This document shows positions 20,827 through 36,731 of a stretch of 64,000 nt of DNA, in pieces (positions within the stretch are counted from its first letter, which is position 1; each line of letters starts with the position of its first letter). The stretch spans positions 496,001-560,000 of the forward strand of contig NZ_JAGSPB010000002.1 in the NCBI RefSeq assembly GCF_019204025.1, given 5' to 3'. A program made the translations under genes and the position numbers. The notes under the pieces were generated by a model. That model ran no database searches. It saw only the letters and a program-made list of their open reading frames with translations, and was not told the origin of the DNA. This stretch comes from Erythrobacter ani (GTDB taxonomy: Bacteria; Pseudomonadota; Alphaproteobacteria; Sphingomonadales; Sphingomonadaceae).

Positions 20827-20858
20827 CTCTTCGAGACTACCTTTCCCTCACGACTCGA

Positions 20859-20900: not shown

Positions 20901-21067
20901 TCTTGTTTTGTTGACATCCTGGTTCGGCAGGGATGATTGCTCATTGTTTGAAAAAGGGGTAAGCCTGAGTCGCTGGCGGGAGAGAGGCTGGACATCTTCC
21001 GGCTCCATCAGCAGCGACGCGATCCGCGCCGTTCCCGGCATTGTGGACCGGGAGACTGGAGGGTCTG

Positions 21068-21979
21068 ATGGCGAACACCAAGGGGAATGGCGTATTCGAG
21101 GCAGGTCAGGCTGCGCTACGAAAAGTGATCTCAAATCCATTGGGATTGCGAAAAACAGCACAGGCCGAACGCGATGAACGCGAAGCTGCTTTATCCGACG
21201 ATTCAATCAACGCCATTATAGAAGGCGAGATCATTCCGCGTCTGCTCATGGCCCACGCGTCCGGAAGACCTTCCAGCCGTGCTGGCCGGGATGTCGGGAT
21301 CGCGTCTTCCGACGCCAGCGATTTTGCGAAGCTCCCGATGAGCCTTGAAGCTGCGAATCTGATCGAGGAAGTCGACCGGTTTCTGGATGCAGGCGTAAGC
21401 GTCGAGACCATCTATCTCGATCTGCTCGCGCCGGCCGCAAGAAAACTCGGTGACATGTGGGAAAACGACGAATGCGATTTCGTCGACGTGACGATGGGGC
21501 TCTGGCGGTTGCAGGAAGTCATGCGCGATCTTGCCTCACGCGTTCCTCCACCGCCTTTGGAAGATAAGGCAAATCAACGCCGTGCGCTGTTTTCGGCCAT
21601 GCCCGGCGACCAGCACAGTTTTGGTGCGCTGATGATCGACGAGGTGTTTTCGCGCGCCGGATGGCACAGCGAGGCGCTGCCCAATGGCGAGCGCCGGGAG
21701 CTGCTGGACCGCTTGGCCAGCAGCCACTTCGACGTGGCAGGATTGACCGTTTCCCGGCACTGCCCTAGCGCGACGATCACCAGTTTGATTACAGCCATGC
21801 GAAGCGTTTCAGCAAATCCGCACCTATCCGTTTTAATCGGCGGCAAGATGATCAATGACGATCATTCGATTGTCGCCCAAGTGGGAGCCGATGGGACCGG
21901 CGCCGACGCTCGTGATGCGCTTGAGGAGGCCGACAGACTGGTCCGATCGAAGCCAGTGCGAGCGCAAGCTATGCGCTAA
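21068..21979 (+). CDS. ppaA: PpaA/AerR-type cobalamin-binding antirepressor
   Basis: 303 residues. A helical B12-binding-2-like region (about 95-160, with LLAPAARKLGDMWENDECDF) precedes a Rossmann B12-binding domain holding D181-Q-H183-S-F-G186, which fits the base-off/His-on D-x-H-x-x-G cobalamin motif, then SRHCPS and LIGGKM. AerR/PpaA proteins bind cobalamin in a light-dependent manner and modulate CrtJ/PpsR. The start at 21068 has GGAGGG 5 bp upstream. ppsR follows after 12 bp, the usual pairing. Confidence 0.92.
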   Translation: MANTKGNGVFEAGQAALRKVISNPLGLRKTAQAERDEREAALSDDSINAIIEGEIIPRLLMAHASGRPSSRAGRDVGIASSDASDFAKLPMSLEAANLIEEVDRFLDAGVSVETIYLDLLAPAARKLGDMWENDECDFVDVTMGLWRLQEVMRDLASRVPPPPLEDKANQRRALFSAMPGDQHSFGALMIDEVFSRAGWHSEALPNGERRELLDRLASSHFDVAGLTVSRHCPSATITSLITAMRSVSANPHLSVLIGGKMINDDHSIVAQVGADGTGADARDALEEADRLVRSKPVRAQAMR

Positions 21980-21991
21980 CCGGGACCATGA

Positions 21992-23422
21992 ATGCTAACA
22001 CGTAAGCACAGTATCGAAGGCAAGCACCCATTCGGCAAGGCGGCTGAACTCTTCAACAGCCTCGACGCCGACGCCGCGATGAAACTGGCCATGGTGGCCG
22101 GTGACGTCACGCTGGTACTCGACGATGCTGGCACGATCCTCGACGCAGCCTTCGATCCCTCCGATTTCCCCGAGCTGGACGACTGGGTCGGAACCAACTG
22201 GATCGAGACCGTCACCGAGGAAAGCCGGTCCAAAGTCATGGAAATGCTGGCCGCCGCACGCCGCGGCGAGGTGCAGCACTGGCGGCAGGTCAATCATCCC
22301 ACGCGAAAGGGCGATGTACCGATCCGCTATGCGGTGCTGAGCGTGAATGGCGGCGAGCATCGCATCGCTTTCGGGCGCGATTTGCGTGACGCGGGGCGGC
22401 ATCAGCAGCGCCTGCTCCAGGTCCAGCAATCGCTGGAGCGCGATTATCTGCGCATGCGCCAACTCGAAGCCCGCTATCGGATGCTGTTCGAACTTTCTTC
22501 GGAAGCGGTGCTGATCGTCGAAGCATCGACGCTGCGGATCAGGGAAGCCAATCCGGCTGCGCATTCGATGACAGGGTACCGGGCTGGCTCGCTGCCCGGA
22601 AAGAAGCTGCCGAGCCTGATGGACAAAAGCTCGCGAGATGCGCTTCAGGCACTTGCGGGATCTGCGATGGCCTCCGACGCGGTGGCGCCGATCGAGCTTC
22701 GGCTGGCAAAAGGATCGCGGCTCGTAAACGCCGCAATCACCGGTTTCACGCAGGACAGAGGGCAGTTCCTGCTGCTGAGACTGACGCCATCGGGCGATAG
22801 CGACGACAAGGTGGATTCGCCGCTGTTCGACCTGATCGACTGCATGCCCGATGCCTTCGTCATGGCAAATGCCAATCTTGAAATCATCAGCGCAAACCAC
22901 GCCTTCGTCGAACTGGTCCACGCGGCAAGCGTCGACCAGCTCCGCGGCAAGCACCTGTCCGAGACGATCGGCAGGCCGGGCATCGACCTCGATCTGATCG
23001 AGGGGCAGATCGATCAACACGGAGCCGCGCGAAACGTGAGCACGGTGCTGCGGGCGGGCGGAGAGCCCGACGGCGAGCCTGTCGAGCTTTCGGCTGTTCG
23101 CAGCAGCGGGGACGAATCTCTCTATGCCTTCGTCATCAGGCCCATCGGTCGGCGGTTGCGCGACCTGCCGCCCGGGGCTGAAGATCTGCCGCGCTCGGTC
23201 GAGCAATTGACCGATCTTGTGGGCCGTATGTCGCTCAAGGACATCGTTCGGGAATCGACGGACCTGATCGAGCGACTGTGCATCGAAGCCGCCCTGAACT
23301 ACACTTCAGACAACCGTGCGTCGGCGGCGGAAATCCTGGGGCTGTCGCGCCAGAGCCTCTATTCTAAGCTGCACCGTTATGGCCTGGGCAACCTGCCATC
23401 CGACCCTGACGAAGGCGGCTGA
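21992..23422 (+). CDS. ppsR: Transcriptional regulator PpsR/CrtJ
   Basis: 476 residues: an N-terminal PAS region (about 30-135), a coiled linker rich in Gln/Leu/Arg (135-165), two further PAS domains (about 165-270 and 275-390) and a FIS-type helix-turn-helix (425-468, NRASAAEILGLSRQSLYSKL). It represses photopigment genes aerobically or in light at TGT-N12-ACA palindromes, several of which lie in this window. Only two cysteines occur: Cys430, in the HTH at the position of the redox-active Cys of Rhodobacter homologues, and Cys284 at the start of the third PAS domain. Confidence 0.96.
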   Translation: MLTRKHSIEGKHPFGKAAELFNSLDADAAMKLAMVAGDVTLVLDDAGTILDAAFDPSDFPELDDWVGTNWIETVTEESRSKVMEMLAAARRGEVQHWRQVNHPTRKGDVPIRYAVLSVNGGEHRIAFGRDLRDAGRHQQRLLQVQQSLERDYLRMRQLEARYRMLFELSSEAVLIVEASTLRIREANPAAHSMTGYRAGSLPGKKLPSLMDKSSRDALQALAGSAMASDAVAPIELRLAKGSRLVNAAITGFTQDRGQFLLLRLTPSGDSDDKVDSPLFDLIDCMPDAFVMANANLEIISANHAFVELVHAASVDQLRGKHLSETIGRPGIDLDLIEGQIDQHGAARNVSTVLRAGGEPDGEPVELSAVRSSGDESLYAFVIRPIGRRLRDLPPGAEDLPRSVEQLTDLVGRMSLKDIVRESTDLIERLCIEAALNYTSDNRASAAEILGLSRQSLYSKLHRYGLGNLPSDPDEGG

Positions 23423-23590: not shown

Positions 23591-23608
23591 TGTCAATTTA
23601 ATTTGACG
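23591..23608. promoter_or_regulatory. PpsR/CrtJ-type operator upstream of bchG
   Basis: TGTCAATTTAATTTGACG, 29 bp before the bchG ATG, fits TGT-N12-ACA with one terminal mismatch and has arms TGTCAA/TTGACg around an AT-rich centre. It suggests that bchG-carrier-bchP is independently repressed rather than read through from ppsR. Confidence 0.7.
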
Positions 23609-23637
23609 CCCACGACTGTCAGGCATAGCCTTCATCC

Positions 23638-24540
23638 ATGGAACGCTCCGCGGTATCGACTCGCCCTGCGCCGATTCCGGCGCTCCGCGATGTCGTCCAG
23701 CTCCTGAAACCAATCACGTGGTTCCCGCCCATGTGGGCATTCATGTGCGGTGCAGTTTCGTCCGGCGTCGGGCTCGATGGCCGCTGGCTGTTCGTACTTG
23801 GCGGCATTCTCCTTGCAGGACCGTTGGTATGCGGGACGAGCCAGGCGGTGAACGACTGGTTCGACCGCGATGTCGATGCCATCAACGAACCGAACCGCCC
23901 CATTCCATCAGGCCGGATTGCAGGGCGCTGGGGGCTGTATATCGCTCTCATCGGGACGGCCATTTCCGCGGCCGTCGCGTGGATGCTCGGCATCTGGGTG
24001 TTTATCGCCGCGCTGGTCGGCCTCGCACTCGCGTGGGGATACAGTGCACCGCCATTCCGGTTTAAGACGAGCGGCTGGACCGGCCCAGCCGTGGTCGGAC
24101 TGACTTATGAAGGCCTGAGCTGGTTCACCGGGGCGACCGTGATGCTGGGCGCTTTGCCGTCGTCGCAGGTTCTGATCGTGCTGGTGCTATATAGCCTCGG
24201 CGCGCACGGCATCATGACATTGAACGATTTCAAGGCAGTCGAAGGTGACCGTGCAACCGGTCTCAAATCGCTGCCGGTGACGATGGGAGTGGCCGGTGCC
24301 GCCAGATTCGCCTGCGCAGTCATGGCGGTGGCACAGATCATCGTCATCGCGCTGTTGGCGCGGTGGGGCCATGTCATCTCGGCGGTGCTGGTTGGCGGCG
24401 TGTTGGCCGCACAGTTCACCGCAATGCCGCGCCTGCTGCGCGATCCGAAGAAATATGCGCCGTGGTACAACGCCGTCGGCGTGACCCTCTACGTGTTCGG
24501 CATGCTCGCTGCCGCGCTTGGCCTTGGTGGATATCTGTGA
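23638..24540 (+). CDS. bchG: Bacteriochlorophyll synthase (geranylgeranyl/phytyl transferase)
   Basis: 300-residue UbiA-family prenyltransferase with about eight membrane helices. The Asp-rich motif NDWFDRDVDAINEPNRPIPSG and the second motif NDFKAVEGDRATGLKSLPV match BchG. It esterifies bacteriochlorophyllide a with geranylgeranyl (or phytyl) diphosphate. Its stop overlaps the next gene (TGATG). A polar N-terminus precedes the conserved LLKPITWFPPMWAF segment. Confidence 0.96.
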   Translation: MERSAVSTRPAPIPALRDVVQLLKPITWFPPMWAFMCGAVSSGVGLDGRWLFVLGGILLAGPLVCGTSQAVNDWFDRDVDAINEPNRPIPSGRIAGRWGLYIALIGTAISAAVAWMLGIWVFIAALVGLALAWGYSAPPFRFKTSGWTGPAVVGLTYEGLSWFTGATVMLGALPSSQVLIVLVLYSLGAHGIMTLNDFKAVEGDRATGLKSLPVTMGVAGAARFACAVMAVAQIIVIALLARWGHVISAVLVGGVLAAQFTAMPRLLRDPKKYAPWYNAVGVTLYVFGMLAAALGLGGYL

Positions 24541-28068: not shown

Positions 28069-28992
28069 TCATTTGGGAGCGTAGTAATGCTCCTGCGCCC
28101 ATACGTACCAGTTATCGACCACCGTTCCGGTCAGCAGAATGCCAATGCCGCCCGTGAAGGTTGTAAGCACCGCAAACCACCAGGCCCAGCGGTGGATCGA
28201 TTCCATCGTGGCGTTGAAACCCATGGTCCAGCGCCAGAACAGACCCGCCCGTTCCGAGGCTGTGCCGCGGTCGGTGATCTGTTCGATCTCTCGTTCACCG
28301 CCATAGCGGCCCACCGCAAGGATAGTTGCACCGTGCATCGCGAACAGCACGGCCGAACCGTAAAGGAATACGATCGAAAGCGCGTGGAACGGATTGTAGA
28401 ACAGGTTGCCGTGGATCAGCGAGAAATTGTTCGTCCAGTCGAGGTGCGAGAACACACCGTAAGGAACCGCCTCGGCCCAGCTGCCGAGCAGGAGCGGGCG
28501 GATGAAGCCCAGCACCAGGAACAGCCAGATCGCGCTCGCGAAAGCCCACGGGATGTGCATGCCCATGCCGAGCATTTTCGCCCGGCGATAGGTCCGCGCC
28601 CACCAAGCAAGCACCGAGATGGTGAGGAACGCGCCGGTCAGGATGAACCAACCGCCCTCGTTCAGCGGCACGAACGGGCTGAAGCCGTACTCCGGTCCCG
28701 GAGGGTCAAGCGAGAGCCAGAACAGCTCGCGCATGAAAGTCTGCGGACTCCAGCCTGCCTCGGCCCAGAAATTGAGACCGATGATCATGATCGCAGCTGC
28801 CCCGAAAGCCAGCGAGATCACTCCTAGCGTGCCCAGATAGATCGGTCCGAACTGCGCCTGTCCGATCTTGCCCAGCCAGTAATTGTATCCGGTGGACGGG
28901 ATGCGGATGTCTTCGCCCGGCGGCAGCGGTACGCCCATTTCGGGCGGACCCTTTAGCTGCACCTGAGTGAAAATGTTTTGATAGGTAGCCAT
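28069..28992 (-). CDS. pufM: Reaction centre subunit M
   Basis: 307 residues, five membrane helices. Helix D/E residues for cofactors are visible: [17 protein letters not shown] (special-pair His), [22 protein letters not shown] (iron ligands His and Glu) and SIHRWAWWF. It starts at 28992, one base after the pufL stop; the frame extends 24 codons upstream into pufL but ATGGCTACC is the family start. The C-terminus is short and no cytochrome gene pufC follows; the next element is a terminator. Confidence 0.97.
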
Positions 28993-28993
28993 A

Positions 28994-29830
28994 TCAGATC
29001 GGCCCTCCTTCCCAGATCGGGATCTTTCTCCAGAAATCCCAGAATTCCGGCCAGCTGCCAACATACAAGGTTCCTGAAATCACGATGCAGATGGCGCTCC
29101 AGAACCCTGCGTTGAGTGCAAGGAAGAGGCCCACGCGGTGAATGCCGAGCGTGCCGACCGAATAGCCGATGAAGTCGCGGAAATACGTATCCTCGTATTC
29201 CGGCGTCTTCACGTCGGTCCCGTCGCTCGGGTTGACTGCTGAAAGCACCAGGCCGCCATGCAGAGCCAGGGCGAGGCAGTTCGTGAAGAAGAACGTGATC
29301 GCCAGCATGTGCACCGGATTGTAGTGGAAGTTTGCGTACATGTACCCGGTGTTCGAAACCCAATCGAGGTGCGACCAGATACCGTAGGGAAAGCCGTATC
29401 CCCACGCGCCCATCCAGACAGGCCGAATGACGACCAGCGTGAAATAAGCGAATACTGCAAAACTGAACGCGACGGGGATGTGCAAACTCATCCCCAGCTT
29501 GCGGGAGATTTCCGCCTGCCTGAGAACCCAGGAGGAGAACGCGACAATCGCGCAAGCAGTGATGACCTGCCAATACCCGCCCTCTGACAAGGGCGCGAAT
29601 GCCAGGCCGTTTTCAATGGCTGGTGGTTGAATGTCGATCAGCCAGGGGTTCAAGGTCGGACCTTCGATGGCCGCAGCAAAAATCAGCATCGTTCCAAGAA
29701 GCGCGCTGATCGCCACCAAGACTCCAAAGAATCCGACATAAAACGGGCCGACCCAAAAATCGAAGAGGTCGCCGCCGATCAATGTTCCACCGCGCACGCG
29801 GTATTTCCGCTCGAAACTAAGGAGCGCCAT
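28994..29830 (-). CDS. pufL: Reaction centre subunit L
   Basis: 278 residues, five membrane helices, starting [20 protein letters not shown]. Special-pair and iron His residues lie in [18 protein letters not shown] and [11 protein letters not shown]. It binds the primary-donor bacteriochlorophylls and the secondary quinone with PufM. GGAAGGA lies about 8 bp before the ATG. A 97-bp spacer with two stem-loops separates it from pufA. Confidence 0.97.
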
Positions 29831-30361: not shown

Positions 30362-30506
30362 AGAAATGTCTCCGTATCAGTTGGTTGGAGTGAAGGCCGA
30401 AGCCTCCGTCGGCATCCCCGCGTGATCCCCCACGTGGATTTGGTGTGCCCTTGAAATGGGCAATCTGGATGCCGGGCACAGCGAAGAGATTTGCATGACG
30501 CTTCAT
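30354..30506 (-). CDS. Candidate 50-codon reading frame between bchZ and pufB (pufQ position)
   Basis: The frame starts with ATGA overlapping the bchZ stop, preceded by AAGGGGAGA at 5-6 bp, and ends TGA eight bases into the pufB start (ATGAATGA). The product begins [20 protein letters not shown], is Gly/Arg/Asn-rich after that and has no membrane segment, so it does not look like PufQ, which occupies this place in Rhodobacter. It might be a leader peptide coupling bchZ to pufB translation. Function and even translation are unproven. Confidence 0.4.
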
Positions 30507-31972
30507 GCGGTCTCCCCTTCTAGCTGCGCCCCAGAAAATTGATCGTCGAGACAGTCGGGCGTGACTGCGCTCTGTCCGCGCACCCGTGCGGTGCGCTCGG
30601 CCGCATCGCGGATGCGCTTGGCGGCGGAGATACGGATGAGGACCGGCTGCGCTTCAACCAGCCTGTCGAGCCTGGCTTTCGCTGCGTCGTCCCAAGAGAC
30701 CTCGGTTTCGCTCCGGGCCGGGGTTGCCTCTGCCTTGTCCATATCGGTGCCGAGCGGCAAGATATGGAACAGCGCATCGAACAGCGCATTGCAGACTTCC
30801 TGCACGATATAGGTCGCGCCCGAATATCCCATGAAGGGCGTGCCCGTATGGCGGCGGATTGCTGCCCCGGGAAAGCTTGCCGGAATGAAGGTGCTGGTCG
30901 GACCGAAGCCGCTAGGGCATTCGGCGAGATACATCCGTTCGTTGTAACTGCCGAAAAGCACCATTGGCGGGCTGGCATGGATCGCCGCGCGCACGTCTTC
31001 GTTTTTCGGTTTGACGCCCGGCTCGCGCGAATAGGCGAAGGCGCAGGGCAGACCCATGTCCTCTTCGAGGAAGTGCCGCATTCCGCGCGCATAGGTGCCG
31101 TTGGCGACGATCCCGAAATTGGCGGTGCCGAAGAAATCCTGAGTGACCGAGCGCCACAGATCCCACAGCGGCTTGATCGTGGTGTGCTTCTCGCGCTCGA
31201 TGAACGGTTCCGGGTCCAGCCCCAGCTCTGCACCCAGTGCGCGGAGGAATCTGGTGGTCGAGGACAGCCCCACCGGTGCCTGGAAATACGGCCGCTCCAG
31301 CGTTTCGCAAAGATTGCGGCCGAACTCGCGGTACATGCAGACATTGGCGTCTGCCATGCCCAGCTGGCGGATGTCGGCAAGATGGCAGCCGAGCGGGAAG
31401 ACGACGCCAACTTCCGCGCCGATGCCTTCGACCAAGCGGCGGATCTCGGCAAGATCGGATGGCATGTTGAACATGCCGTAACTCGGGCCGATGATGTTGA
31501 CCTTCGGCTTTTCGCCTTCCTTGCGGTCCTTGGGCTTGGGAGCCTTCTTGGGGCCGAATTCGGTCCACAGCCATGTCAGCGCACGGTCGGCGCTTTCCCA
31601 CTGGTCTTCATCGATCGTGCGAGGCAGGAAACGCTTGATATTGGTGCCTTCGGGCGTCACGCCGCCGCCGATCATCTCCGAGATCGAACCGGTGACCACC
31701 ACGGCAGGCAGTTCGGGGTCGAGCGTTTCCCAAGCGCGCTTCATCGCGCCCTCTGTGCCAGTCTTGCCCAGTTCCTCTTCGCCGAGTCCGGTGACGACAA
31801 TCGGAAGCTCGTGCGGGGGCAGGGCGTCGGTGTAGTGCAACACAGAGGTGACGGGCAGGTTCTCGCATCCGACCGGGCCATCGATGATGACCTGCAGGCC
31901 CTTCACCGCCGTAAAGACGTAGGTGGCGCCCCAATATCCGCCTGCGCGATCATGGTCGAGGACTAGGGTCAT
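30503..31972 (-). CDS. bchZ: Chlorophyllide a reductase subunit Z
   Basis: 489 residues, NifK-like. Cys36 in [14 protein letters not shown] is the expected cluster ligand. With BchX and BchY it reduces the C7=C8 bond of chlorophyllide a, the step that makes the bacteriochlorin ring. ATGA overlap with bchY upstream. The C-terminal region ([31 protein letters not shown], positions near 30,600-30,700) is typical of BchZ. Confidence 0.97.
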
Positions 31973-33513
31973 GTGCCCACCGCCTCGGACGCCTTGCGCG
32001 CCGCTTCATTGAGAGCCGCGTATTTCTTGCGGAATTTCGGCCGGTCGACAGGGGTGTCTTCCCAGACGCCCGCGGCGTGCTCAGTCCCGACACCTTCGAA
32101 GAAGTCGCGCATCTTGTCGAAGCGCGCCTTGTTGCCCATTGCCGCGTTGATGACCTGCGCAAGGCTTCCCGCGCCGGCCGGACCCATCAGCGGGCGGGCC
32201 GAGATGAGGTTCGTGAAATAGAGCGCCGGAATAGCCTTGGCCTTCGCATGCTGCACCACTGGAGTGGTGCCGATCGCGAGATCGGGGCGGAATTCCTCGA
32301 CGGCTGCAATATCTTCTTCGAGGCTGGCGCGATAATTCACCCGCACGCCCATCACCTCGAGCCATTCGCGGTCCTGATCCGACCACTGCGTTGCAGGGCA
32401 GGCCGTGCCTACATACGGCACATCCGCGCCGCTTTCGATGAGCAGCCGCGCCACGAGCAATTCGGATCCTTCATAGCCCGAAACAGTGATCCGACCCTTG
32501 ATCGGATTGGCGGCCAGCGCCCCCTTGATAGCGCCGGTCATCGCGTCTTTGACGCCGTCGACTGCCTCTTGCGCCAGGCCAAGCTCATCGCGGATGCTTT
32601 GCAGCCAAGCGGCGGTACCATCGACGCCAACCGGTGCCGAGCCGATCACCGGGCGGCCTGCCGCCTGGAATTCGCGGATGCTCGCGGTGTAGAACGGATG
32701 GATCGCGGCGGCCACGGAGCAATCGAGCGCGGAATACAATTCGCGCCATTCGCGCGTCGGAACGACCGGACCTGCGGCGAGGCCAAGCGGTTCGAGCATC
32801 TGCCCGATGACCACCGGATCTGCCGGGAACATTTCGCCAAGCAGCGCGACCGTAGGCTTGTCCGAGCGCTCTTTGGGAGCGGCAACCGGGCCGGCGGCGA
32901 CTTCTTCGCGCGCATATTTCAGCATCGCGCCGGCAAGAACGTCTTTCGCCTCGGCATGGGTCGGGATGCCGAACCCGGGGACGTCAATGCCGATGATACG
33001 CACGCCGTTGATCTGTTTCTTCAGTAACCGCAGCGGGACGCCGCTCGCAGTGGGCACGCAAAGATTGGTGACCACGATCGTGTCGTAATGTTCGGGATCG
33101 GCGAGGTCTTCGACCGCTTCCTTGATATCCTCGAACAGTTTGCCGGTTACCAGCGTTTCCGAGGAGAACGGGACATAGCCAACCGTCCGCCGCGCGCCGT
33201 AAAAGTGCGAGGTGAACGTCAGTCCGTAAACGCAGCAAGCACTTCCCGATAACACGGTCGCCGTGCGTTTCATCCGCAGCCCTACTCGGAGCGACCCGAA
33301 GGCAGGGCACATGCTTTGCGGTTGATCGTGTGGACCCCGCTCGGGATCGACCGGGTAATCGGCGGCGTACTGGTCGAGTATCTCGCTCTTGCCCGCAGCA
33401 CGGGCGGCCTCCTGCATACGGTCCTTGCCGCCATGGCAACCGTCACCGCTGCCGGTATCGAGCTCGATCCGGTCGGGGGTGCGTTCCGCGTCGGAGGCAG
33501 CAAATTCCGTCAA
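31969..33513 (-). CDS. bchY: Chlorophyllide a reductase subunit Y
   Basis: 514 residues, NifD-like. Cluster cysteines are apparent at Cys69 ([12 protein letters not shown]), Cys93/94 (GSACCVYGL) and Cys152 (NLCVPTAS). The start is a TTG at 33513 directly after the bchX stop, with GAGG just upstream; no better start exists in the N-terminal region before the conserved core. It pairs with BchZ as catalytic component. Confidence 0.95.
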
Positions 33514-34503
33514 TCAGACCTCGTCGTAAATCACTTCAAGTGATGGCTTCTGTTCGAAGACGCCGCCGCGCATGTCGGCCTGCGTTGCCGGGACCAGTTT
33601 GATGTCGCGCCCCGTGTCTTCGGGAGAGAAAAGGTTGAGCAGGCCGTCCTGATCGAGCGGTGTGGGCTGTTTAGGAGGCGCCTCGGCGACATTCGTCGCA
33701 AGGTCTTCGAACAGGCTTGCCCACTCACCGCCGGGGGTACCGATAATCTGGTAATTGGCGCTCTTGCGGCGGATATCCTCGTTTGCCGGGATCGCGGTCA
33801 GAACCGGAATATCGACCGCCTCGGCAAAAGCCTGCGCCTCGCCCGTGCCGTCATCCTTGTTCACGATCATGCCCGCCACGCCGACATTGCCGCCCATCTT
33901 GCGGAAATATTCGACCGCGTGGCAGACGTTGTTCGCGACATAGAGGGACTGGAGGTCGTTCGAACCGACCACGATCACTTTCTGGCACATGTCGCGCGCA
34001 ATCGGCAGGCCGAACCCGCCGCAGACAACGTCACCCAGGAAATCCAAGAGGACGTAGTCGAAACCCCATTCGTGGAAGCCCAGCTTTTCGAGCAGTTCGA
34101 ACCCGTGAATGATCCCGCGCCCGCCGCAGCCGCGACCGACTTCGGGGCCACCAAGCTCCATGGCGAACACGCCGTCGCGCTGGAAGCACACGTCTTCGAT
34201 GGTGACTTCTTCGCCTGCCAGCTTCTTCTTGGACGAGGTCTCGATGATCGTGGGGCAAGACTTGCCGCCGAACAGCAGACTGGTCGTGTCCGATTTCGGA
34301 TCGCAGCCGATCAGCAGCACGCGCTTGCCCTGCTGCGCCATCATGTAGCTGAGGTTGGAAAGGGCGAAGCTCTTGCCCGAGCCGCCTTTGCCGTAGATCG
34401 CGATGACCTGCGTTTCGCTGGTTACCTCGCCGGTGTGAACCGGGTCGGGTTCCTGGGCAGCTTCATCGCGCAAACTTGCAGTCTGGGCGTCCAACATAGT
34501 CAT
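33514..34503 (-). CDS. bchX: Chlorophyllide a reductase iron protein BchX
   Basis: 329 residues, NifH-like ATPase. P-loop YGKGGSGKS (residues 37-45) and [4Fe-4S] ligands Cys126 (GRGCGGRG) and Cys161 (GDVVCGGFG). The GSGKS loop and the long C-terminus distinguish it from BchL. The start at 34503 overlaps the bchC stop (ATGA); ATG at 34497 is an alternative. The frame extends to 34674 within bchC but without homology. Confidence 0.96.
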   Translation of the reverse strand: MTMLDAQTASLRDEAAQEPDPVHTGEVTSETQVIAIYGKGGSGKSFALSNLSYMMAQQGKRVLLIGCDPKSDTTSLLFGGKSCPTIIETSSKKKLAGEEVTIEDVCFQRDGVFAMELGGPEVGRGCGGRGIIHGFELLEKLGFHEWGFDYVLLDFLGDVVCGGFGLPIARDMCQKVIVVGSNDLQSLYVANNVCHAVEYFRKMGGNVGVAGMIVNKDDGTGEAQAFAEAVDIPVLTAIPANEDIRRKSANYQIIGTPGGEWASLFEDLATNVAEAPPKQPTPLDQDGLLNLFSPEDTGRDIKLVPATQADMRGGVFEQKPSLEVIYDEV

Positions 34504-35435
34504 GCAGCGGTGCTCCAATCGAGAACCATTTTGAGACAGGCAGGGTCGTTGAAAGCCTGCGGATACGCTTCGCCTGCCGCAGTGGCAGGTCGCGCATCCG
34601 TGATGAGGTTCGACAGATCGAGCTTGTCCGCTTCGATCAGGTCTAGTGTCTGGGTGAGGTCGGCAGGTTGCCATTCGGCAGCGATGCGAAGGCGCGCTTC
34701 TTTCATGAAGGCTGCGGGGAAGGCGAAATTGACTCGCTCGGCGTAGAAGCCCGCCAGCACTATCTCGCCGCCTTTCGCGAGATGCGGTGCCGCGGCATCG
34801 ATGATCGCGGCATCGCCGCTCGCATCATAAACGGATCGGTAATCCCGGCGTTCGTCGGCATCGGGAGCGACGACATCATAACCCTGTGCGCCAGAGCGAC
34901 GGGCCTCACTGGTTTCCCAAACTATCGGTGCCGATGCTCCCAACGCGACGGTCAGACGAGCAAGCAATCGGCCAAGGACGCCGTGGCCGATGATGAGATC
35001 AGGCGGAGTGCCGCCATTGATGGCATGGAGCGCTGTCGCGGCAAGGGCGCAAAGCACGCCCGACTGCCCGAGGCGCTCGGGCACTGGCAAGGCGCGTGCG
35101 GACGGGACGACCACATGGCTTGCGGTGCCGCCGAAAAGTCCGCGTGCATCGGTGTAGCAATTCGCGCCGGGTACGAAGACCCAGTCGCCGATCCGGCCAT
35201 TCGCATCGCTGCCCACATCGACGATGCGGCCGATAGATTCGTATCCGGGGACGAGGGGGTAACCCATGCCGGGGAAATCGGGCATCCGGCCCGTCCACAG
35301 CAGTTTTTCGGTGCCGGAGCTGATCCCGCTCCATGCGATCTCGATCACGACATCGCCGGAGCCTGCCGGTGTCAACTCAAGCTCCCGCAGCGCAAGGCGC
35401 TCGGGTCCTTCGAGTATGACAGCCAGTGAGTTCAT
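34500..35435 (-). CDS. bchC: 3-hydroxyethyl bacteriochlorophyllide a dehydrogenase
   Basis: 311 residues, zinc-type medium-chain alcohol dehydrogenase fold lacking most structural-zinc cysteines, as usual for BchC: WSGISSGTEKLLWTG, PGYESIGRIVDVG and the nucleotide fold around GHGVLGRLLARL. It oxidises the C3 hydroxyethyl group to acetyl. The start at 35435 has AGAGGGGG about 10 bp upstream; a GTG at 35444 is possible. First gene of bchC-X-Y-Z-pufBALM, with two PpsR-type sites upstream. Confidence 0.95.
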   Translation of the reverse strand: MNSLAVILEGPERLALRELELTPAGSGDVVIEIAWSGISSGTEKLLWTGRMPDFPGMGYPLVPGYESIGRIVDVGSDANGRIGDWVFVPGANCYTDARGLFGGTASHVVVPSARALPVPERLGQSGVLCALAATALHAINGGTPPDLIIGHGVLGRLLARLTVALGASAPIVWETSEARRSGAQGYDVVAPDADERRDYRSVYDASGDAAIIDAAAPHLAKGGEIVLAGFYAERVNFAFPAAFMKEARLRIAAEWQPADLTQTLDLIEADKLDLSNLITDARPATAAGEAYPQAFNDPACLKMVLDWSTAA

Positions 35436-35512
35436 CCTCAGCACTTCCCCCTCTGCTTCTCACCGGTCCGATATTCGCGACTCGGTCAGTGGCAAGAGAT
35501 ACTTTCTCCAAG

Positions 35513-35530
35513 TGTGTGGTACGCTTTACA
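35513..35530. promoter_or_regulatory. PpsR/CrtJ-type operator, bchC-proximal site
   Basis: TGTGTGGTACGCTTTACA is an exact TGT-N12-ACA match. On the minus strand it covers a possible -10 element TACCAC (35521-35516). It ends 8 bp before the partner site at 35539. Confidence 0.78.
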
Positions 35531-35538
35531 AGCATGAG

Positions 35539-35556
35539 TGTCAATTTAGACGGACA
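35539..35556. promoter_or_regulatory. PpsR/CrtJ-type operator, bchC-distal site over the -35 region
   Basis: TGTCAATTTAGACGGACA is an exact TGT-N12-ACA match. On the minus strand its edge supplies TTGACA (35544-35539), 17 bp from TACCAC in the other site, so the two palindromes would sit on the -35 and -10 elements of the bchC promoter. Confidence 0.8.
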
Positions 35557-35564
35557 CCCGACCG

Positions 35565-36689
35565 TCAGGCATGGGCGACAATGCAGCTGGCGATTACCGG
35601 TTGCGCAGTCGGGACGACCCGAGTGCGCGAAAATCCGGCCGCGCGCAGCATGCGCGCAACCTCGTCCGGGGATCGCGGGCGGCCCGATCCCATCGCCCAC
35701 AGATAAAGGCCGAAAAACGCGTCGCCCATGGCCAGCGCTCCGGGAATGCCCGCCATCGGTTCCGCGATCAGCAGCCTGCCGCCAGGAGAGAGGCTGGCAC
35801 GGATATTCCTGAGCAGCGCCATTGCAGGCTCGTCATCATGGTCGTGCAGGATTCGAATCAGAGAAACGATATCGTATCCCTGAGGTATCCCGTTCTCGAA
35901 GAAATTGCCGGGATGACAGGTCAGCCGCTCGGCCCCGACCGATTGTGCGAGAGGCCCGCGAGCGGCCTCGGCCACTTCGGGCAAGTCAAACAGCCCGAGG
36001 CGTATATGTGGATAGGCGGCACCGACGCGGCGGATGAATTCGCCATGCCCGCCGCCCACATCGAGCAGGCTGCCTTGTTTGGGAAACCGGAATGCGCCGA
36101 TCACCTCGTCGGCGACGAAGCGCTGCGATGCAGCCATCAGCTCGGAATATTCCTGCGTTTCCGCGCCTCTTTCCGCCGCCCCGTGCAGCGCCCCCGCATA
36201 CGACCAGTAATGCGACAGCGCCGTCGGTTCCTTGCGATTGCGGCGCAGCAGATCGATCGGGTCGGCAAGGTCGCTGTAGAGGAGACGGTGATGGCGAATC
36301 ATAGCCTGCGTGCCGGGATCAGCCTGAAGCACCGCTCCCTGCTGGCCCAGCATCCACCCGTCCGACTGCGCTTCCTCGGCCAGGTCGAGCGCGCGTGCGG
36401 CCTTGAGCAGGCGCATCGCAGCATCCTCGCTCAGGTCGATATCCTGCGCGACCTCGCCCGCGCTCACAGGCCCCTTGGCCAGCAGGTCGAGCAGTCCGCT
36501 TTCGACGGCTGCGCGCAAGACCTGCGAATAGGAAAAACCGACGAGGTGATCGAACATCTGTGTTGCGCGGGTGCGAGCGACCGATCGGATGAAAGGGATT
36601 CGCGCGGCCCAGTATTGAAATCGAGAGCTGGCAAATATGGCGTTGCGGCGCGCGATCCAGCGGACCTTGAATGACGGTTCTGCCATCAT
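35565..36689 (-). CDS. crtF: Demethylspheroidene/hydroxycarotenoid O-methyltransferase
   Basis: About 374 residues. N-terminal winged-helix dimerisation domain (LVGFSYSQVLRAAVESGLLD, residues ~50-110) and a C-terminal SAM-binding domain with LLDVGGGHGEFIRRVG. CrtF methylates the 1-hydroxyl group of acyclic carotenoids. The frame begins at ATG 36707, but the operator at 36714 and lack of ribosome site make the ATG pair at 36689/36686 equally likely. It ends 130 bp before the bchC start on the same strand; the bchC promoter lies in that gap, so expression can be by read-through and by its own promoter. Confidence 0.93.
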   Translation of the reverse strand: MMAEPSFKVRWIARRNAIFASSRFQYWAARIPFIRSVARTRATQMFDHLVGFSYSQVLRAAVESGLLDLLAKGPVSAGEVAQDIDLSEDAAMRLLKAARALDLAEEAQSDGWMLGQQGAVLQADPGTQAMIRHHRLLYSDLADPIDLLRRNRKEPTALSHYWSYAGALHGAAERGAETQEYSELMAASQRFVADEVIGAFRFPKQGSLLDVGGGHGEFIRRVGAAYPHIRLGLFDLPEVAEAARGPLAQSVGAERLTCHPGNFFENGIPQGYDIVSLIRILHDHDDEPAMALLRNIRASLSPGGRLLIAEPMAGIPGALAMGDAFFGLYLWAMGSGRPRSPDEVARMLRAAGFSRTRVVPTAQPVIASCIVAHA

Positions 36690-36713
36690 TTTTGAGCGTT
36701 TTGACATCTCATA

Positions 36714-36731
36714 TGTCCAAATGATTGGACA
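36714..36731. promoter_or_regulatory. PpsR/CrtJ-type operator between crtF and crtD
   Basis: TGTCCAAATGATTGGACA is an exact TGT-N12-ACA match and a near-perfect palindrome (TGTCCAA/TTGGACA arms). It lies between divergent crtF and crtD; a TTGACA at 36701-36706 could be the -35 of a plus-strand promoter. Confidence 0.8.

Follow-up and report, generated by a model that had tools for sequence, protein, structure and literature searches.

The bchC promoter of Erythrobacter ani raises the question of what controls it. Aerobic phototrophs make bacteriochlorophyll in air, so that a repressor responding to oxygen needs another input, and the region upstream of bchC carries two predicted sites for such a repressor, PpsR. 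We analysed the 64,000-nucleotide stretch that contains this locus (the window) together with bchC promoters of other bacteria. Our overall explanation, in which we have high confidence, is a tandem PpsR operator lying over a sigma-70 promoter of bchC (and bchXYZ), with the lower site rebuilt and a GANTC motif added in the close relatives. The genome encodes the oxygen-dependent cyclase AcsF and gave no match to BchE, which fits an aerobic lineage that makes bacteriochlorophyll in air. Of at least 568 confirmed BchC relatives the 80 best were taken, and the nearest named ones among them are Erythrobacter. The genes and sites to which the argument refers are as follows.

34500-35444, minus strand: bchC (TIGR01202, 433 bits against a cut-off of 291)
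30503-34674, minus strand: bchX, bchY and bchZ, downstream of bchC (TIGR02016, TIGR02015 and TIGR02014, above cut-off)
28069-29830: two reaction-centre proteins, puf-type by position (PF00124)
35565-36707, minus strand: O-methyltransferase gene, crtF by position (PF00891, 129.6 bits), upstream of the promoter
21992-23422, plus strand: ppsR (TIGR02040, 375.8 bits against a cut-off of 275.4)
21041-21979, plus strand: gene for a B12-binding protein, AerR/PpaA-like (PF02607 above and PF02310 just below cut-off), adjoining ppsR
35509, minus strand: predicted transcription start, placed by the geometry of Rhodobacter capsulatus bchC, where the lower palindrome lies at -21 to -4 (PMC5362033)
35539-35556: upper predicted PpsR operator TGTCAATTTAGACGGACA, minus-strand reading TGTCCGTCTAAATTGACA, exact TGT-N12-ACA
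35531-35538: spacer between the operators, 8 bp, CTCATGCT in the minus-strand reading; length fixed, letters free
35513-35530: lower predicted PpsR operator TGTGTGGTACGCTTTACA, minus-strand reading TGTAAAGCGTACCACACA, exact TGT-N12-ACA
35544-35539, minus strand: -35 hexamer TTGACA, the right end of the upper operator
35521-35516, minus strand: putative -10 hexamer TACCAC within the lower operator, 17 bp from TTGACA
35563-35580, minus strand: possible third, weaker operator TGTCGCCCATGCCTGACG, one mismatch, 6 bp upstream of the upper operator, containing the stop codon of the crtF-like gene
35479-35483, minus strand: GANTC (here GAGTC), a CcrM-type methylation motif, within CGAGTCG at 35478-35484, about +27 to +31 from the predicted start

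The minus strand 5' of bchC reads TGTCCGTCTAAATTGACA - CTCATGCT - TGTAAAGCGTACCACACA, and the stop codon of the O-methyltransferase gene lies 8 bp upstream of the upper operator. An earlier note had claimed two exact palindromes 8 bp apart, with TTGACA and TACCAC 17 bp apart on the minus strand, and a PpsR gene at the position listed; the coordinates and letters are right, and the gene assignment is borne out by its TIGR02040 score. TTGACA is clear and conserved, and TACCAC is a weak match to the -10 consensus, poor when set against TATAAT. The true start of bchC is possibly the ATG at 35435 (residue 4), since in most relatives the alignment begins at residue 3 or 4. The AerR/PpaA name of the B12-binding protein is our assumption, taken from its domain and its position.

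The exact pair occurs in one place in the 3.15-Mb genome, where simple arithmetic predicts about 0.023 (about 0.0005 per 64 kb) and a reversed control pattern gave 0. Single TGT-N12-ACA sites are no commoner than chance, with 8 counted in the window where 5.5 are expected, and at least 8 in 18 of 100 shuffles, which is the one point in favour of functionless chance palindromes. That reading, whose probability we consider negligible, is refuted by the conservation of the pair. The comparison set consisted of 114 other bchC upstream regions, each the 300 bp before bchC, with a dinucleotide-shuffle control; 80 are the best-scoring of the confirmed relatives, 26 come from 385 genomes of the class and 8 from among 11 plasmid-borne bchC genes, and, since those 80 are the nearest relatives, Sphingomonadales are over-represented in the set. 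A pair of palindromes separated by 8 bp was found with at most one mismatch in 92 of the 114 loci and was exact in 42, against a shuffle mean of 0.0. Among the remaining 22 loci, 19 have such a pair with two mismatches (in L019 a pair other than the promoter-like one) and L076 has one with three; no recognisable PpsR pair was found upstream of bchC in L079, a Phenylobacterium MAG, or in L081, a gammaproteobacterial assembly.

The spacing of the operator is rigid. A gap of 7 was found in 13 loci and a gap of 6 in 7 loci, mostly arising from the third upstream palindrome, and every other gap in no more than 2 loci; a 9-bp spacing is rejected because none of the 114 loci has a pair with at most one mismatch at that gap. 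The plasmid-borne genes of Roseobacter, Tateyamaria and Sulfitobacter have exact pairs and the gammaproteobacterium Thiodictyon has a pair with one mismatch. With the window included, TTGACA closes the upper site in 102 of 113 loci, and a PpsR match was found in all 30 genomes chosen for that search. From the frequency of the pair and its range across loci, the 8-bp architecture is a general property of bchC promoters. A third site with at most one mismatch occurs at gaps of 6, 7 and 8 in 5, 15 and 13 loci, respectively (33 of 113 in total), and at any other gap in 2 loci or fewer; its letters in the window may be partly held by coding. A further PpsR-like palindrome pair lies at 36689-36731, between the methyltransferase gene and the divergent crtD, with a gap of 7 and one mismatch in all, and its palindrome TGTCCAAATGATTGGACA at 36714-36731 is symmetric over seven bases per arm.

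Beneath this constant spacing the register of the -10 hexamer differs between lineages. The 113 loci, including the window, divide into 71 in which the TA of the -10 occupies positions 9-10 of the lower palindrome, giving a 16-bp spacer, 30 (with the window) in which it occupies positions 10-11, giving a 17-bp spacer, and 12 with neither register, which were left out of the register counts and in several of which the automatic choice appears to have been an upstream pair. The hexamer ends in T in 66 of the 71 and in none of the 30, and in the relatives of the window within the group of 30 it is mostly TAGCAA or TAGCAC. TACCAC is best read as the -10 hexamer of this group. The GGCGTAG context of the group resembles, by eye, the bchG and bchF -10 regions of the same genomes. 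The group was defined by register, and its status as a single lineage comes from a quick BchC tree in which the 30 loci form one branch and a single change accounts for the register (support is weak for 42 of its 110 inner branches, and the 12 loci with neither register were not counted). A corresponding -10 shift at bchG as a change of this group was considered and rejected, as the bchG 17-bp spacer is common to the group and the outgroups.

The two palindromes have fared differently in the shifted lineage. The upper is exact in 29 of the 30 shifted loci, and in 42 of 43 new loci that bear the GANTC motif described below; the lower is exact in 7 of the 30 and 6 of the 43, compared with 44 of the 71 loci of the older register. 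Within the 30, the six TTGACA columns of the upper operator are unchanged and its TGT end hardly changes while its interior varies, and the 8-bp spacer columns have undergone 2-16 changes each. The lower palindrome shows the reverse: its interior GT.A.GC.TA is unchanging, its outer T has changed 3 times and its outer ACA 1, 2 and 7 times. Since 23 of the 30 have an inexact lower palindrome, the group may have weakened or lost the cooperative binding of two sites. The 30 loci have thus preserved the phase of the operators over a promoter that was rebuilt. The earlier note had proposed that the architecture is conserved into a strictly aerobic lineage; the conservation stands for the 8-bp spacing, which is found in Erythrobacter and far beyond, but the exact double palindrome is untypical of the close relatives.

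These patterns admit the reading that working PpsR operators in the group are confined to the upper site, and that the lower is a remnant held by the -10 and perhaps by another factor, the exact match in the window being partly chance. We regard this as a serious possibility, although we lean against it. The loss of exactness in the lower site and the confinement of change to its outer bases are what it would predict. Against it, at least 27 of the 30 pairs have no more than two mismatches overall (none in 7, one in 18, two in 4 and three in 1) and the 8-bp phase is kept; loci with the shifted -10 but without GANTC have an exact lower site in 5 of 7 cases; and the PpsR of Rubrivivax gelatinosus protects crtI sites with one mismatch each, although more exact sites bind better (PMC4452267). 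We retain the tandem operator with a rebuilt lower site as the preferred explanation.

The second peculiarity of the group is the GANTC motif. It is present in all 30 shifted-register loci, starting 28-33 bases after the lower palindrome, whereas shuffling leads one to expect a GANTC anywhere in the leader in 6.5 of the 30 and in at most 13. On the tree of the 30 the G, A, T and C have not changed at all and the N has changed five times; the following G has not changed, the preceding C has changed twice, and other columns within about a dozen bases have changed 5 to 17 times. The flanks of CGANTCG are accordingly C in 28 of 30 and G in 30 of 30, and a single change accounts for the trait on the tree of 113. 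It is not a general feature of bchC leaders, because outside the 30 it occurs anywhere in the leader in 16 of 83 loci against 13.2 expected, which is no enrichment. Over the entire window there are 90 GANTC where base composition predicts 227, a 2.5-fold deficit.

The genus provided a test on new data: BchC was found in 85 of 114 genomes, and the further loci were those outside the first set with the shifted -10 (L153, which was reached through the family search, is counted with the genus, and G661, at a contig edge, was left out). GANTC lies 26-36 bases after the palindrome in 43 of these 47 further loci. When reduced to 43 distinct leaders (from 46 loci, with L153 left out), 41 contain it and the next best XXNXX pattern is found in 23. 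Despite the shifted -10, GANTC is absent from L153, L239, L247 and L250 in the genus and from L154, L156 and L158 elsewhere in the family, and from these seven loci it follows that the -10 shift and the gain of GANTC were not the same event. Five new genus loci with the older register have no GANTC at that place, L161 has the older register and a GANTC at 29, and the family locus L176 has no recognisable pair. Judged by this pattern of conservation, the GANTC element is real.

Similar motifs are found near other photosynthesis promoters of these genomes. In the window, the bchG promoter at 23591-23634 has a weaker PpsR-like pair, with a gap of 8 and two mismatches, over TTGACG-N17-TAGCCT, and a GANTC at 23658 lies 27 bp after the -10, within the first bchG codons. 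A GANTC is found 27-29 bp after the bchG -10 in 15 of 16 group loci, compared with 2 of the 13 other loci whose -10 could be recognised; at other positions inside 60 bp, four of those 13 have one. The motif occupies codons 7-9 of bchG, and in L129 and L134 it persists despite a change in the encoded amino acid. The bchF-aerR intergenic region of the window contains two GANTC, at 20852 and 20967, one of them just after the presumed bchF -10. This region contains a GANTC somewhere in 13 of 16 group loci and 13 of 15 others. As only 9 of the 16 group loci have one 24-26 bp before the bchF start codon, we claim no conservation at bchF.

GANTC is the site of the methyltransferase CcrM and is read by GcrA. 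The genome encodes GcrA (PF07750 at 82.1 and 58.9 bits in one frame) and a protein with a RAMA domain as in CcrM (PF18755, 68.2 bits), which is probably CcrM itself. The conserved motif suggests a methylation or cell-cycle input to the PpsR promoter. In its specific form, this would be a CcrM-methylated and GcrA-bound site through which bchC transcription in the Erythrobacter group is coupled to replication or growth, an interpretation that we put forward tentatively. It would account for a motif in which the N is free and the rest fixed, and which is kept in all of the 30 and most of the further genus loci, and for the corresponding site at bchG. All 30 sites also fit, on one strand, the extended GcrA motif YGAKTCK (PMC7987155), although only the flanks count in this fit because in every GANTC one of the two strands has G or T at the N, and in the available text of the same source Brevundimonas shows no clear preference for the extended motif. 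The Caulobacter GcrA regulon was defined with peaks at -40 to +40, a range that covers about +27 (PMC7987155), and methylated GANTC is known from the phototroph Sphingomonas AAP5 (PMC8067484). On the other hand, methylation sites in Caulobacter were counted within the 50 bp upstream of starts, a range that does not take in about +27 (PMC4287350), GANTC is commoner between genes in Alphaproteobacteria anyway (PMC7987155), the motif is missing from the seven shifted loci named above (4 of the 47 in the genus and 3 elsewhere in the family), and some bchG genes outside the group have a GANTC at other places. A broader proposal, that the photosynthesis genes of the Erythrobacter group answer to the cell cycle through an added CcrM/GcrA site at the rebuilt bchC promoter (and one at bchG), with PpsR repressing mainly via the upper operator and methylated GANTC and GcrA setting activity during replication, is more doubtful still.

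Other explanations of the motif do not involve methylation. CGANTCG could be the palindrome of another regulator, or a contact point of an AerR-PpsR complex extended downstream, either of which we think unlikely. The conserved flanking C and G would suit a longer palindrome, and AerR-CrtJ binding reaches about +58 of R. capsulatus bchC (PMC5362033); yet the N varies, the core is exactly the CcrM motif, and the distance of GANTC differs among the bchC, bchG and bchF promoters. That the motif owes its conservation to an RNA structure which it helps to form in the bchC leader is very improbable: single leaders form hairpins near or around GANTC, and the mean pairing probability of the five columns is 0.51-0.75, but RNAalifold over the 30 leaders gave no consensus structure (energy 0.0) and the motif is paired differently from one sequence to the next. 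A second promoter with GANTC between its -35 and -10 was also considered and rejected, as by eye there is no -10-like hexamer downstream. Among the open-access papers listed for this subject, no title joins CcrM or GcrA with PpsR promoters. GANTC is retained at the bchC promoter by most of the photosynthetic members of a large genus, which offers a concrete test of whether the additional input is replication or growth phase.

The PpsR of the window has two cysteines only, Cys284 and Cys430; the latter, in the DNA-binding domain, is present in all 31 aligned PpsR sequences and is presumably equivalent to CrtJ Cys420, an equivalence that we draw from its place in the HTH domain. No second conserved cysteine for an intramolecular disulfide was found, as no other cysteine column is occupied in more than 4 of the 31 sequences. 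The lack of a conserved partner for Cys430 and the adjacent gene for a B12-binding protein point to light or AerR control of PpsR, and not to the disulfide switch of Rhodobacter, as the more plausible inference.

We envisage that two PpsR dimers or one tetramer would bind both 18-bp palindromes, probably cooperatively, with the 8-bp gap being fixed because the bound proteins touch, and that bound PpsR would shut RNA polymerase out of the -35 and the -10. The strength of repression would be set by the adjacent AerR/PpaA-like B12-binding protein and perhaps also by Cys430 of PpsR. In the close relatives, the lower site would have been remodelled to suit a -10 of the GGCGTAG type and a 17-bp spacer, leaving the upper site with the cleaner palindrome, and GANTC would have been added near +27. 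What the operator pair confirms is a known design and its rigidity: Alpha- and some Gammaproteobacteria share the spacing of 8, whereas the letters, the -10 register and the third site have drifted.

The closest known system is bchC of R. capsulatus. Ponnampalam, Elsen and Bauer reportedly described cooperative CrtJ binding in 1998, as named in their title. The palindromes of R. capsulatus lie at -47 to -30 and -21 to -4, which is a gap of 8 bp, and span the -35 and -10; these published coordinates agree with the precedent that the earlier note had named, and DNase I and ChIP-exo footprints and a sixfold aerobic rise without CrtJ have been reported for this promoter (PMC5362033). The window shares with it two TGT-N12-ACA sites 8 bp apart over the -35 and a putative -10, and a genome with ppsR/crtJ and a B12-binding aerR-like gene. 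It differs, as far as the available text of that source describes the R. capsulatus promoter, in that the close relatives of the window usually have an inexact lower site, a -10 without the final T and a downstream GANTC.

Tandem sites in aerobic phototrophs are not new and have already been published (PMC2654016, PMC10890935). Dinoroseobacter shibae is likewise an aerobic anoxygenic phototroph with PpsR motifs over the -10 and -35, and there the repressor role was shown with a ppsR mutant, in which bchF expression was more than 2-fold higher, even in the dark; it is unlike the window in that the gene is bchF rather than bchC and the antirepressor is the LOV protein LdaP (PMC10890935). In Congregibacter litoralis, also an aerobic phototroph, 12 of 15 predicted PpsR sites are in tandem, 7 or 8 nt apart, although this is a gammaproteobacterium and its sites are prediction only (PMC2654016). 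The crtI and pucB promoters of Rubrivivax gelatinosus similarly have tandem PpsR sites, 8 or 9 bp apart, and in the available text of that report binding was redox-dependent at the 9-bp sites but not at the 8-bp sites, so redox control need not follow from the 8-bp geometry (PMC4452267). The GANTC motif has its counterparts in the CcrM/GcrA promoters of Caulobacter and Brevundimonas, where GANTC likewise lies near a sigma-70 promoter in the extended YGAKTCK form (PMC4287350, PMC7987155); unlike the Caulobacter sites, which were counted upstream of the start (PMC4287350), the GANTC of the window, a candidate methylation site, lies at about +27 from the predicted start.
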